Both the position numbers and the translations under genes were made by a program. From assembly GCA_003565775.1 (NCBI GenBank), contig PXAT01000044.1, forward strand, positions 1 through 64,000: a stretch of DNA of 64,000 nt, given 5' to 3'. The notes below the pieces were generated by a model that was not told the origin of the DNA, did no database searches, and saw only the letters and a list, made by a program, of their open reading frames with translations. The stretch comes from Ectothiorhodospiraceae bacterium. GTDB lineage: Bacteria; Pseudomonadota; Gammaproteobacteria; Nitrococcales; Aquisalimonadaceae. Positions 8,492 to 13,714 of this stretch are shown in pieces; position 1 is the first letter of the stretch; every line of letters starts with the position of its first letter.

Positions 8492-9259
8492 ATGCAGCTG
8501 GACGCGATTCATACAGTCATGGTGGAGCCGCAGCTGGCCGGCAACATCGGCGCGGCAGCGCGAGCCATGAAAACCATGGGCCTGGCGCGGCTGCATCTGG
8601 TGCGTCCGCGGCAGTTTCCGCATGCCGATGCCACGGCCCGTGCAGCCGGCGCCGATGATCTGCTGGAGGCGGCCGGGGTGCATGACACACTGGACCAGGC
8701 GCTGCAGGGCATGGGCTTCGTGGTCGGGCTGTCGGCACGTTCACGCCACCTCTCCTGTCCGGCCGACTATCCGCGACCGGCGATGGAGCGCATCGCGCTT
8801 GAATCGCAACGCCATCCGGTGGCGTTACTGTTCGGTCGCGAGCGTACCGGTCTGACCAATGACGAACTGGACCGCTGCCATCAGGTGATCCATATACCGG
8901 CGGCGCCGGACTACTCCTCGCTGAATGTGGCGGCGGCGGTGCAGGTCATTTGCTACGAATTGCGCTGGCAGATGGTGCAGGGCAGTGATGCGCCCCAGCC
9001 CAGCGAGAGCTGGCCGGTGGCGACCTCCGAACAGATGGAGCAGTTCTACCAGCATCTTGAAAAGGTCCTGCTGCGCATCGATTTCGCTCGCCAGGATAAC
9101 CCCCGCGCGCTGATGCGGCGGCTGCGGGTGCTCTACAATCGGGCACGGCCCGATCACAACGAGATGCAGATCCTGCGCGGTATTCTCGCGCATGTGGAGA
9201 AGGGACTGGACGGCCGGCTGCATTCCGCTGCTGTCGACAGTGACCCGCCCGGCAGCTGA
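8492..9259 (+). CDS. trmJ: tRNA (cytidine/uridine-2'-O-)-methyltransferase TrmJ
   Basis: SPOUT-class methyltransferase that methylates the ribose of nucleotide 32 in several tRNAs, 255 residues. Family features are [24 protein letters not shown] at the start, the [15 protein letters not shown] cofactor-knot strand and [23 protein letters not shown]. The C-terminal extension is typical of TrmJ rather than TrmL. It sits between suhB and cysE as in many gammaproteobacteria. Confidence 0.93.
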
Positions 9260-9303: not shown

Positions 9304-10089
9304 ATGCTGACTCGCCTGAAAGAGGATATTCGCTCGGTCATGGACCGGGATCCGGCGGCGCGCAATGCGTTCGAGGTTCTCACCTGCTATCCGGGCCTGC
9401 ACGCGATTTTCTGGCATCGACTGAATCATCGCCTGTGGCGCTGGGGCCTGCGCTGGCCCGCGCGTTTTCTGTCCACGGTCGCGCGCTGGCTGACCGGTAT
9501 CGAGATTCATCCGGGGGCGCGCATCGGTCGCCGTTTCTTCATCGATCACGGGATGGGCGTGGTGATCGGCGAGACCGCGCTGATCGGCGACGATGTCACC
9601 CTTTATCACGGGGTCACACTCGGTGGCACCAGCCTGGATGGCGGCAAGCGGCATCCGACGCTGGCCAACGACGTGGTGGTCGGTGCCGGTGCCAAGGTGC
9701 TGGGCCCGGTGCAGGTGGCGACCGGCGCACGGATCGGTTCCAACGCGGTGGTCCTGCGGGACGTGCCGGAAGGGGCGACCATGGTCGGTATCCCGGCACG
9801 GGTGGCCGGGCGCCGCGACGACGATGCCCATCGACGTCGCGAGGAAACGGCCCGTCGTCTCGGCTTTGACGCCTATGGTCAGACCGACATGCCCGATCCT
9901 GTGAGCAAGGCGATCAATTCCATGCTGGATCATATTCAGGCCACCGACGAGCGTCTGATCGAGATGTGTCGGGTGATCCGCAAGCTGGGTGGTGAACTGG
10001 AAGACGTGGAGTTGCCGGATATCGCCGGCTGCGACATGGAGAACGGCGGGCGACGGCGCGACGGCCCCGGGGACAAGGACCCGTCCTGA
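9304..10089 (+). CDS. cysE: serine O-acetyltransferase CysE
   Basis: Makes O-acetylserine, the first step of cysteine synthesis, 261 residues. An N-terminal helical part with [25 protein letters not shown] is followed by a left-handed beta helix with hexapeptide repeats ([30 protein letters not shown]) and [19 protein letters not shown]. The start is ATG 9304 behind AGGGAAAGGG. It lies two bases before a cysteine desulfurase, so the cluster couples cysteine supply to Fe-S assembly. This is the shorter, cyst/epsilon-type form. Confidence 0.93.
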
Positions 10090-10090
10090 C

Positions 10091-11278
10091 ATGGCCCGGC
10101 TCTATCTGGACCATGCTGCAACCACCCCGCTGGATCCGGCCGTGCTGGAGGCGATGCTGCCCTGGATGGGGTGTGATACCGGTTTCGGTAATCCCGCGTC
10201 GGTAACCCATGCCTACGGGCGGACCGCGGCCGCGGCGGTCGAACAGGCACGGCGGCAGGTCGCGGATCTTCTGCAGGCGCCGGCCGAAGGCGTGATCTTC
10301 ACCGGCAGTGCCACCGAGGCCATCAACATGGCGGTGCTCGGCAGCATGCGCTTTTCCATGCAGCGCGGCCGCGGCAGCCATCTGGTGACCTGTGCCACCG
10401 AGCACAGCGCCGTGCTGGCGGCCTGCGAGCAGCTTCGGCGCGAGGGCGCCACGATCACGGTACTGCCGGTCGATGCTAACGGGCAGTTATCGTTGGCTGA
10501 CCTGCAGGAGGCGCTGCGCGATGACACGGTGCTGGTCTCGCTGATGCTGGGCAACAACGAAACCGGTGTCTGTCACGATATTGCCGCGGTGGCAGCGCTG
10601 TTGCAGGGGCATCCGGCGCGCCTGCATGTGGATGCGACCCAGGCGGTAGGCAAGGTACCGGTGCACCTGCCCGCCTTGCAGGCCGACCTGTTGTCCCTGT
10701 CCGCGCACAAGTTCCACGGCCCCAAGGGAGTTGGCGCGCTGTGGCGGTGCCCGGAACCGCGCGTGCGGCTGCAGCCCCTGCTGTTCGGCGGTGGTCAGGA
10801 GTCCGGCGAACGGTCCGGAACACAGGCGGTCCATCAGATTGTCGGCCTGGGCGAGGCATGCGGACTGGCTGCGAATGCGCTTCCCGCCGAGATGCAACGC
10901 CTGACAGCGCTGCGTGACCGGCTGGAGGCGGGTCTGCGCGCCACCGGCATTCCGATGGTCTGCAACGGCGCCGGACGGCGCTTGCCACATATCAGCAACC
11001 TGAGTTTTCCGGGGCTGCACGGCGAGGCCCTGCTTGCCGATATCGAACCGGAACTGGCGGTGGCGCTCGGGTCGGCCTGCAGTTCCGCCGATGCGCGGGG
11101 TTCCCATGTGTTGCGTGCCATGGGGCTCGACGAGACGCTTTCATTGTCCGCCTTTCGCTTAAGTGTCGGCCGCCGGACCACGCCTGCCGACATCGACGTT
11201 GCGGTGGCGGTCGTGGCTCGCAGCGCGCAGCGGCTGCTGCGCTTGTCGCCCCTGCAACCGCGAGGGGTGGCGGGGTGA
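10091..11278 (+). CDS. cysteine desulfurase (NifS/IscS-like)
   Basis: PLP enzyme that transfers sulfur from cysteine to Fe-S scaffolds, 395 residues. The N-terminus LYLDHAATTPLDPAVLEAMLPW is diagnostic. The PLP lysine is in SLSAHKFHGPKGVG and the active cysteine in ALGSACSSADARGSHVL. Sequence style is nearer NifS-type desulfurases than enteric IscS. It is preceded by cysE and overlaps the IscU-like gene by four bases (GTGA). iscR, hscB, hscA and fdx, usual in an isc operon, are absent here. Confidence 0.92.
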   Translation: MARLYLDHAATTPLDPAVLEAMLPWMGCDTGFGNPASVTHAYGRTAAAAVEQARRQVADLLQAPAEGVIFTGSATEAINMAVLGSMRFSMQRGRGSHLVTCATEHSAVLAACEQLRREGATITVLPVDANGQLSLADLQEALRDDTVLVSLMLGNNETGVCHDIAAVAALLQGHPARLHVDATQAVGKVPVHLPALQADLLSLSAHKFHGPKGVGALWRCPEPRVRLQPLLFGGGQESGERSGTQAVHQIVGLGEACGLAANALPAEMQRLTALRDRLEAGLRATGIPMVCNGAGRRLPHISNLSFPGLHGEALLADIEPELAVALGSACSSADARGSHVLRAMGLDETLSLSAFRLSVGRRTTPADIDVAVAVVARSAQRLLRLSPLQPRGVAG

Positions 11279-11661
11279 CTGACTGGTCGCCGGCGCTGCT
11301 CCGGCATTTTCGTTCCCCGGTCGGAAGCGGACTTTTGGCCGGCGATTCGACCGAATTCGGCACAGGCGAGGCCGGTGCTGTAAAATCCGGAGTGAGAATC
11401 GTTTATCAGCTGGCCTTGAGCGACGGAGATATCATCGACCGGGTCGGCTGGCTGGCATTCGGGTGTCCGGCCACCATCGCCAGTTGCAGCTGGCTGGCAG
11501 AGAGTCTGGTCGGCCTTTCGGTCGATCGGGCACGGGATCTGACCGGCGGTCAGGTGATGGTGGCGCTGGACATACCGCGGGACCGACGGTCCCGGGTGCT
11601 GGTGGTGGAAGATGCGGTGCGCGGCGCGCTTGATGCCGCGACCACGATGCGGGACACGTGA
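11275..11661 (+). CDS. divergent IscU/NifU-N-like scaffold protein lacking two cluster cysteines
   Basis: 128 residues with the outline of IscU: LLRHFRSPVGSGLL at the start, then a WLAFGCPATIASCSWLAE core like the YGCGSAIASS region. The Cys in FGC corresponds to IscU Cys63. The first cluster ligand, expected in a 'GAPACGD'-like stretch, is replaced by GAVKSGV. The third, expected in 'IHCS', is replaced by RSRVLV. A second Cys in ASCSW is not a standard ligand. It may be a sulfur carrier or regulatory relic rather than a cluster scaffold. The GTG start is fixed by the four-base overlap with the desulfurase. Confidence 0.75.
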   Translation: MTDWSPALLRHFRSPVGSGLLAGDSTEFGTGEAGAVKSGVRIVYQLALSDGDIIDRVGWLAFGCPATIASCSWLAESLVGLSVDRARDLTGGQVMVALDIPRDRRSRVLVVEDAVRGALDAATTMRDT

Positions 11662-11674
11662 AGAGGTGAGGCGA

Positions 11675-11998
11675 ATGAGCATCAACTTGACCGAGAAAGC
11701 GGCATCCTATGTATTGGCGCGGGCGGCCCGCGAAGGGCACCGCAACAGTTTGCGTCTGGGGGTCAAGACCAGCGGCTGTTCCGGGTTCGCCTATACCGTG
11801 GATTATGCCGATGCCGTGGCCGAGAACGACGAGGTGTTCGAACAGCATGGCGTCACCGTGGTCATCGACCGCAAGAGTCTGCCGTTCCTGCAGGGGATGG
11901 AGGTGGATTTCATCCGCGAAGGTCTGAACCAGCGGCTCGATTTCCGCAATCCCAACGTCAAGGATCAGTGCGGTTGCGGCGAGTCCTTCAGCGTCTGA
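11675..11998 (+). CDS. iscA: A-type iron-sulfur carrier protein IscA
   Basis: 107-residue carrier that accepts Fe-S clusters and passes them to apo-proteins. The three conserved cysteines are in TSGCSGFAY and, near the end, QCGCGESF. Spacing and length match the HesB/IscA family. The start is ATG 11675 behind GAGGTGAGG. Last gene of the cysE-desulfurase-scaffold group. A hairpin and then a better terminator follow before ndk. Confidence 0.93.
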
Positions 11999-12177: not shown

Positions 12178-12603
12178 ATGGCCGTGCAACGGACTCTTTC
12201 CATCATCAAGCCCGACGGCGTTGCCCAGAACGTGATTGGCGAAATCTACAATCGCTTCGAGAAAGCGGGGCTGAACATCATCGCTGCGCGCATGATGCAG
12301 CTGAGCCAAGCCGACGCCGAAGGCTTTTACGCCGTGCACAAGGAACGCCCCTTCTTCAAGGATCTGGTGGGCTTCATGACCTCCGGTCCGGTCATGGTGC
12401 AGGTCCTCGAAGGCGAGGAGGCGATCCGCAAGAATCGCGAGATCATGGGGGCGACCAACCCCAAGGAAGCAGCGGCCGGCACCCTGCGCCACGATTACGC
12501 CAAATCCATTGATGCCAATGCGGTGCACGGCTCCGACGCCGAAGAGACCGCGCGGCAGGAAATCGCTTACTTCTTCAAGGATCATGAAATCTGTTCCCGT
12601 TGA
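12178..12603 (+). CDS. ndk: nucleoside diphosphate kinase
   Basis: Phosphorylates NDPs to NTPs through a phosphohistidine intermediate, 141 residues, full length. Signature [19 protein letters not shown] at the start and the active-site histidine in [22 protein letters not shown] lies upstream of the ATG. The last 20 bases overlap rlmN, so the two are translationally linked, the standard gammaproteobacterial order. Confidence 0.96.
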
Positions 12604-13714
12604 AGTCGTTGCGGAATCGGCGGTAACGCCGGAACGCATCAATCTGCTCGGGCTCGATCGCCGGGCGCTGGAAGGGTTTTTCGCCGAACTGGGCGAGAAA
12701 CCCTTCCGCGTGTCGCAAATCCTCAAATGGGTGCACGCACGACGCGTGACCCGTTTCGAGGACATGACCGATCTCAGCAAGGCCCTGCGCAACAAGCTGG
12801 CCGAGGTGGCCGAGGTGCGGGTCCCGGAGGCGGTGGTGGATCAGCGGTCGGTGGATGGCACGCGCAAGTGGCTGCTGCAGCTGGACGGCGCCAATTCCGT
12901 GGAAACGGTGCTGATCCCGGAAAAGAATCGCGACACTCTGTGTGTCTCGTCGCAGGTGGGGTGCGCCCTGGAGTGCACGTTCTGCTCGACCGGGGTGCAG
13001 GGTTTCAACCGCAACCTGTCCACCGCCGAAATTGTCGGGCAACTCTGGTACGTGAATCGGGAACTGGCGCGCGAGCAGCCGGATCGGCAGGTGACCAATG
13101 TGGTCTTCATGGGCATGGGCGAGCCTCTGCTGAACTTCCGCAATGTGGTGCCGGCCGCCGAGCTGATGAAGGATGATCATGCCTATGGCCTGTCCAAGCG
13201 GCGGGTGACGTTGAGTACGTCCGGTGTGGTGCCCAATCTGTACAAGCTGGCGCAGGTCACCGACATCAGCCTCGCGGTGTCGCTGCATGCGCCGGACGAC
13301 GCCCTGCGCAACGAACTGGTGCCGATCAATCAGCGGCACCCGCTGGCCGAGCTGATGCAGGCCTGTCGACACTACATCGCAGACAAGCCGCACCGCCGGA
13401 TTACCTGGGAATACGTGATGCTCGACGGCGTCAATGACAGCGACGCGCATGCCCGGCAGCTGGTTCGGCTGCTCGGGGACATACCGTCCAAGGTCAACCT
13501 CATTCCGTTCAACCCCTTTCCCGGGGCGCGTTATCAGTGTTCACCCGCGGAGCGTATTCAGGCGTTCAGTCACATCCTGTCGCGGGCCGGACTCACCAGC
13601 ACGACCCGCAAGACCCGGGGTGACGACATCGACGGTGCCTGCGGCCAGTTGGTGGGCAAGGTCGATGATCGTACCCGGCGGCGCGAGAAACGGGCTGCGG
13701 GTGAGGGCGCATGA
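12584..13714 (+). CDS. rlmN: 23S rRNA/tRNA adenine-C2 methyltransferase RlmN
   Basis: Radical-SAM enzyme that methylates A2503 of 23S rRNA and A37 of some tRNAs, 376 residues. The cluster motif [11 protein letters not shown] (CxxxCxxC) is clear. [10 protein letters not shown] follows, and the second catalytic cysteine lies in the C-terminal DIDGACGQL. The start is ATG 12584, inside the end of ndk. The stop overlaps the start of pilW as ATGA. Confidence 0.95.

Follow-up and report, generated by a model that had tools for sequence, protein, structure and literature searches.

The isc genes of the window, by which the whole 64,000-nucleotide stretch of DNA analysed is meant, are an iscS-type desulfurase gene, a gene for an IscU homologue and iscA only, followed by ndk and rlmN (Table 1). 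The desulfurase and the IscU homologue are called here IscS' and IscU'. The start of iscU' at 11275 lies in a GTGA overlap with the desulfurase stop codon at 11276-11278, as the sequence-only reading of this DNA had described. The gene directly upstream of iscS', which we take to be cysE from its sequence and neighbourhood, is separated from iscS' by one base, which leaves no space for iscR.

Table 1. Genes of the isc region and the remaining ligand codon, in positions of the window.
Feature	Coordinates	Strand	Description and supporting match
trmJ-type methylase, flank	8492..9259	+	Pfam SpoU_methylase 6.9e-30; flank common to canonical isc loci
cysE (presumed name), serine acetyltransferase-like (hexapeptide)	9304..10089	+	directly upstream of iscS'; Pfam Hexapep 1.8e-11
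iscS', group I cysteine desulfurase	10091..11278	+	395 aa, partner of IscU'; Aminotran_5 1.5e-67; IscS model NF010611 407 bits, below cut-off 548
iscU'	11275..11661	+	GTG start, 128 aa, GTGA overlap with iscS'; IscU homologue without C37, D39, H105 and C106
C64 codon (IscU C63)	11464..11466	+	sole cluster cysteine remaining
iscA, A-type carrier	11675..11998	+	three cysteines intact; Fe-S_biosyn 2.3e-22; IscA model 133.5 bits vs cut-off 150.6
ndk, flank	12178..12603	+	Pfam NDK 6.6e-58
rlmN, flank marking the ancestral isc locus	12584..13714	+	Pfam RlmN_N 3.3e-26; flank common to canonical isc loci

IscU' matches the Pfam NifU_N model with an E-value of 3.6e-13 (50 bits, cut-off 22) and its homology is domain-wide; IscU chains of the PDB are matched at about 1e-10. 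The best NCBIfam model is TIGR01999 (iscU), on which IscU' scores 55.5 bits, below the equivalog cut-off of 192.4, and on which the canonical IscU of a gammaproteobacterial relative (G288) scores 221 bits. On the SufU model TIGR01994 the protein reaches 18.1 bits, for a cut-off of 92.5, and it keeps one of the three metal cysteines. Alignment with E. coli-type IscU, whose numbering is used here for the ligands C37, D39, C63, H105 and C106, places S38, V40, S106 and R107 of IscU' at the positions of C37, D39, H105 and C106, respectively, while C63 is retained as C64. The sequence-only reading, which had seen the first and third cluster cysteines (CGD and HCS) replaced and the central one aligned, was thus right about them, and D39 and H105 are gone as well. 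The LPPVK motif is also absent. An AlphaFold2 model built from five sequences has a mean pLDDT of 88.9, and its nearest solved structures are the ISCU chains of desulfurase complexes (5wkp, 8pk8 and 3lvl; TM about 0.9, Z 20-21), with a TM of 0.89-0.91 against 3lvl_A.

In the class, canonical isc loci have the order suhB, trmJ, cysE, iscS, iscU, iscA, then about 3.6-4.9 kb, then rlmN, pilF, rodZ and hisS. Six canonical regions were compared, of which three have the rlmN flank and could be measured (L168, L169 and L171), one has the upstream flank only (L172) and two have none of the isc-locus flanks (L170 and L173). HscB is encoded inside the gap between iscA and rlmN in two of the three measured loci (G049 and G121). 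In five reduced loci, that of the window among them, the gap is 0.5-0.7 kb, and cysE almost abuts iscS in the reduced loci where both were measured, so that the room for iscR, hscBA, fdx and iscX has been lost. The gene ndk was excluded from this comparison, and in the set of 30 loci described below its matches mark only the place of the ndk gene. As the flanks are the same, the gap has shrunk and cysE nearly abuts iscS, the locus of the window is the ancestral isc locus (trmJ-cysE to rlmN) stripped to iscS-iscU'-iscA. The sequence-only reading had taken the cluster to be complete apart from IscU', which is not borne out, since it is a reduced isc locus in an organism with SUF. In one locus with partial ligand loss outside the order (L114, contig G268:C37), about 3.5 kb of other genes lie between iscA and rlmN, although the genome has no HscB.

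A protein search found iscU' in 30 of 40 genomes, the source genome included; the weakest matches scored low, and for every match the ligandless copy itself was read. In all 30 loci iscU' has this desulfurase on one side and this iscA on the other; most of them also have cysE upstream and ndk-rlmN downstream, and some stop at a contig end or lack one flank. Among named relatives, Methylonatrum kenyense and three Ectothiorhodospiraceae assemblies have the gene. When the order was searched more widely with a profile, iscU' was found in 41 of 54 genomes; the 13 exceptions comprise the whole of family f5 (12 genomes) and one genome that is 74% complete, and outside f5 it is therefore present in 41 of 42. 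Ligand positions were read in 34 of the 41 genomes, and C37, D39, H105 and C106 are missing in all 34 sequences. The reading frame is intact in every locus read, and the neighbouring iscA retains its three cysteines in 30/30 order loci. A sequencing error, which the sequence-only reading had named as a possible refutation, or a frameshift is ruled out as the cause of the ligand loss, because the orthologues share the loss of all four residues in intact frames. Among plasmid sequences, 24 records match IscU', all below 60% identity, and the five that were listed are ordinary IscU or NifU proteins. Ten of the f5 genomes (G019, G022, G025, G027, G029, G031, G033, G035, G037 and G039) were searched for desulfurases; seven have only SufS-like matches and the other three have an IscS-type gene away from the isc locus. 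SufS may carry all desulfurase duties in the f5 genomes without an IscS-type gene.

Neither HscB nor frataxin was found in any of the 40 genomes, the source genome included, with E. coli as a positive control in both searches. SufB/D is present in 39 of the 40, the exception being 78% complete. The source genome was also examined for a canonical IscU or a SUF system, as the sequence-only reading had proposed: SUF is present, with a true SufU beside SufS (TIGR01994, 110.4 bits, cut-off 92.5), which is the second NifU_N protein of the genome, and a canonical IscU was not found elsewhere in it. That ISC and SUF are mutually exclusive in Gammaproteobacteria is already in print (PMC10631705).

Similar losses occur outside the order. 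A class-wide search gave a best 30 loci from 369 genomes, three of them from the order; among the other 27, all five ligands are present in 24, all but C63 are lost in G079 and G288, and only C37 and D39 are lost in G268. Family f182 is in a half-way state, with C37 and D39 absent in three genomes and C106 also absent in one of these. On the desulfurase tree, which was built without the partial or very divergent desulfurase pieces of L019 and L020, the ligandless group needs three changes, and a topology that unites every full and partial loser in a single clade is rejected (p-AU 0.003), with the limits that this group was named after a first tree had been seen and that the desulfurase of L099 is a long branch. 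Judged from these alignments and this tree, loss of IscU ligands recurs in other gammaproteobacteria and has more than one origin. SufB/D is present in all 11 genomes outside the order whose IscU ligands are fully or partly lost. HscB is missing from all six of them that have no gene fusion, and three canonical controls all have HscB, with no SufB/D match in two and a SufB/D fragment in one.

In five of nine genomes of another order, IscS' and IscU' are fused in frame; the pair of the window consists of separate genes. The fused frame has no inner stop in the four genomes of genus g225 (G288, G423, G424 and G425, 4/4) and in G422. The fusion of G288 has 534 residues, of which the desulfurase extends to about 385 and NifU_N covers 403-522. 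A cysteine stands at the place of C63 in four of the five fused genomes and is lost in G422. The g225 fusions have no adjoining iscA, and the unit of three genes is therefore variable. HscB and a canonical IscS-IscU pair are encoded elsewhere in four of the fused genomes, and G424, which is 82% complete, has no HscB match. The four loci concerned (L119 in contig G288:C11, L155 in G422, L157 in G425 and L158 in G423) thus belong to genomes with three desulfurase systems, which are SUF, the fused ligandless IscS'-IscU' and, elsewhere in the genome, a canonical IscS-IscU-HscB set. Among the order loci with separate genes, the start of iscU', taken from the nearest possible start codon, lies at most 11 bases from the iscS stop in 26 of 30, and in none of eight canonical loci, where the distance is 13-60 bases.

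The remaining cysteine brings in the reading in which IscU' is a one-cysteine persulfide carrier, similar to SufE or SufU, with C64 taking sulfur from IscS' and passing it on. The cysteine is kept in the window, in 17 of the 34 order sequences and in most of the fusions; f182 keeps C63, H105 and either C106 or a serine in its place, as expected if the sulfur-accepting side of the protein outlasts the cluster side; and the SufE-like CsdE is weakly similar in fold to the IscU' model (Z 8.4). However, the other 17 order sequences and the fusion of G422 have lost this cysteine and retain the gene, and no further cysteine column reaches half of the 34 sequences. As C63 is lost in half of the order sequences, the sulfur-acceptor role suggested by the sequence-only reading is unlikely to be general, although proteins that still have C64, such as that of the window, may act in this way; as an explanation of IscU', the persulfide carrier is an unlikely one.

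Purifying selection acts on iscU'. Its NG86 dN/dS, computed for nine close pairs of the order, four of the fused lineage and one of f182, is 0.10-0.35 in these 14 pairs, well under 1, and it exceeds that of the desulfurase in 11 of the 14 and that of iscA wherever iscA was measured. P65 and W73 are nearly fixed new residues at positions where canonical IscU has others, and E112, D113 and A114 are invariant in a 30-row alignment of IscU'. The idea that iscU' is a dying relic, drifting while the isc genes are being lost in the presence of SUF, agrees with the vanished space for iscR, hscBA, fdx and iscX, with the faster divergence of iscU' than of iscA and, in 11 of the 14 pairs, than of iscS' and with its absence from all of f5. 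This is quite improbable, because frames are intact, dN/dS is low, the gene is present in every order genome outside f5 except an incomplete one, new residues are near-fixed and relatives have fused it to the desulfurase. The claim of the sequence-only reading that iscU' is kept for a reason is therefore supported by its identical place in 30/30 loci, by its dN/dS and by the fusion in five relatives.

The features of the partner are as follows, with the partial or very divergent desulfurase pieces of L019, L020 and L026 left out of the residue counts. IscS' retains H104, K206 and C328 in 30/30 sequences. W45, which in E. coli IscS is important for TusA and ThiI (PMC2854127), is found in 0/30 IscS', in 0/6 sequences of f142 and in 0/5 of the partial losers together with G079, and in 16/16 canonical IscS. 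Most IscS' sequences of the order retain the IscU-docking end (SPLW), with W387 in 23/30; in the IscS' of the window, W387 and the last part of the IscU-docking helix are missing, and in the four g225 fusions the SPLW end is lost and a linker follows. On the side of IscU', the positions that PMC2854127 lists as contacts with IscS in the E. coli complex are more conserved in the order than the rest (permutation p 0.003), despite the lost ligand role; this may partly reflect the fold and not docking, since the former ligand C63 and residues next to it are among these positions. In that source, reversing the charge of K103 disrupts the E. coli complex and the N-terminal helix of IscU is required for IscS binding. 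The place of K103 is occupied by R or K in 8 of 19 IscU' sequences of f1-f3 and in 4 of 15 of f4, and the N-terminal helix is missing from most f4 proteins.

The same presumed surface and the same partner would also suit a decoy or brake, in which IscU' would sit at the IscU site of IscS' and divert sulfur from cluster assembly, and four fused genomes do have a canonical IscS-IscU-HscB set as well as the fusion. This role is very improbable, because the source genome offers no canonical IscU as a competitor and its SUF system includes a separate desulfurase, encoded beside SufU.

Binding of a cluster or metal by IscU' through other residues is scarcely credible: in part of f4 (6/34) a cysteine stands at the D39 place and position 44 commonly carries a further one, but among Cys, His, Asp and Glu columns only E112 and D113, which lie in the C-terminal helix and are common to canonical IscU, are kept in all 34 sequences, and HscB is absent. 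The six sequences, all from f4, belong to loci L023, L025, L027, L029, L031 and L146, and their cysteines possibly serve a new local function in these small-genome relatives.

The preferred explanation, to which a probability of about 0.6 is given, is that iscU' is the IscU of the old isc locus, retained after SUF took over, as a non-scaffold, cluster-free and dedicated subunit of its desulfurase. SUF would have taken over cluster assembly and freed IscU from the scaffold role, and IscU would have stayed as the partner of its desulfurase, in places as part of the same polypeptide. The ligand loss beside an intact iscA, the constant locus, the purifying selection, the presence of SUF without HscB and frataxin, the conserved contact positions, the residues kept and lost in IscS', the fusions, the closeness of the model to ISCU chains of desulfurase complexes and the desulfurase matches of f5 speak for this explanation; the loss of W387 from the IscS' of the window, the variable K103 place, the missing helix in f4 and the g225 fusions without a neighbouring iscA speak against it. 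IscU' is predicted to dock on the IscS' surface used by canonical IscU, near the mobile cysteine loop, where it may tune, shield or direct the persulfide of IscS'. The loss from IscS' of W45, a residue for docking of TusA and ThiI, makes IscS' and IscU' together resemble a closed and dedicated desulfurase unit. Among the roles suggested in the sequence-only reading, that of a desulfurase partner or activator fits best; of that reading as a whole, the retention stands, the complete desulfurase-IscA cluster does not and a general sulfur-acceptor role is weak.

A wider and more tentative proposal, given slightly less than an even chance, is that in gammaproteobacteria relying on SUF, IscU has repeatedly and independently become a dedicated subunit, free of ligands, of a desulfurase that derives from IscS and has lost TusA/ThiI docking, forming a distinct class of complex, in places one fused polypeptide, that feeds a sulfur acceptor. 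A literature search, which reached few subscription papers, brought up neither a ligandless IscU nor an IscS-IscU fusion. A lineage-wide, selected and ligand-free IscU that accompanies a desulfurase separates in nature the effect of IscU on the desulfurase from cluster assembly, and what IscU binding alone does to IscS becomes testable. Genomes that seem to have iscSUA may have no working ISC scaffold.

Among known systems, IscU' shares with IscU, the Fe-S scaffold of ISC (TIGR01999; PDB 3LVL and 1Q48), the fold, the gene order with iscS and iscA and the place between cysE and rlmN, but it has none of C37, D39, H105, C106 and LPPVK, scores 55.5 bits against a cut-off of 192.4, and stands in a genome without HscB and frataxin. 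SufU, a zinc-dependent sulfur transferase whose fold descends from that of IscU, is likewise related to IscU and acts together with a desulfurase, not as a scaffold; however, SufU retains its cysteines, IscU' reaches 18.1 bits of the required 92.5 on its model, and the genome has a separate true SufU. SufE and CsdE, which act via one essential cysteine, are cluster-free desulfurase partners with a related fold (CsdE, Z 8.4), whereas IscU' often lacks any cysteine at the old ligand sites, C64 being present in 17/34 sequences, that of the window included. ISD11-ACP, which are accessory subunits of mitochondrial NFS1, are unrelated to IscU' in fold and origin, but resemble it in being a non-catalytic desulfurase subunit, the role proposed here for IscU'.
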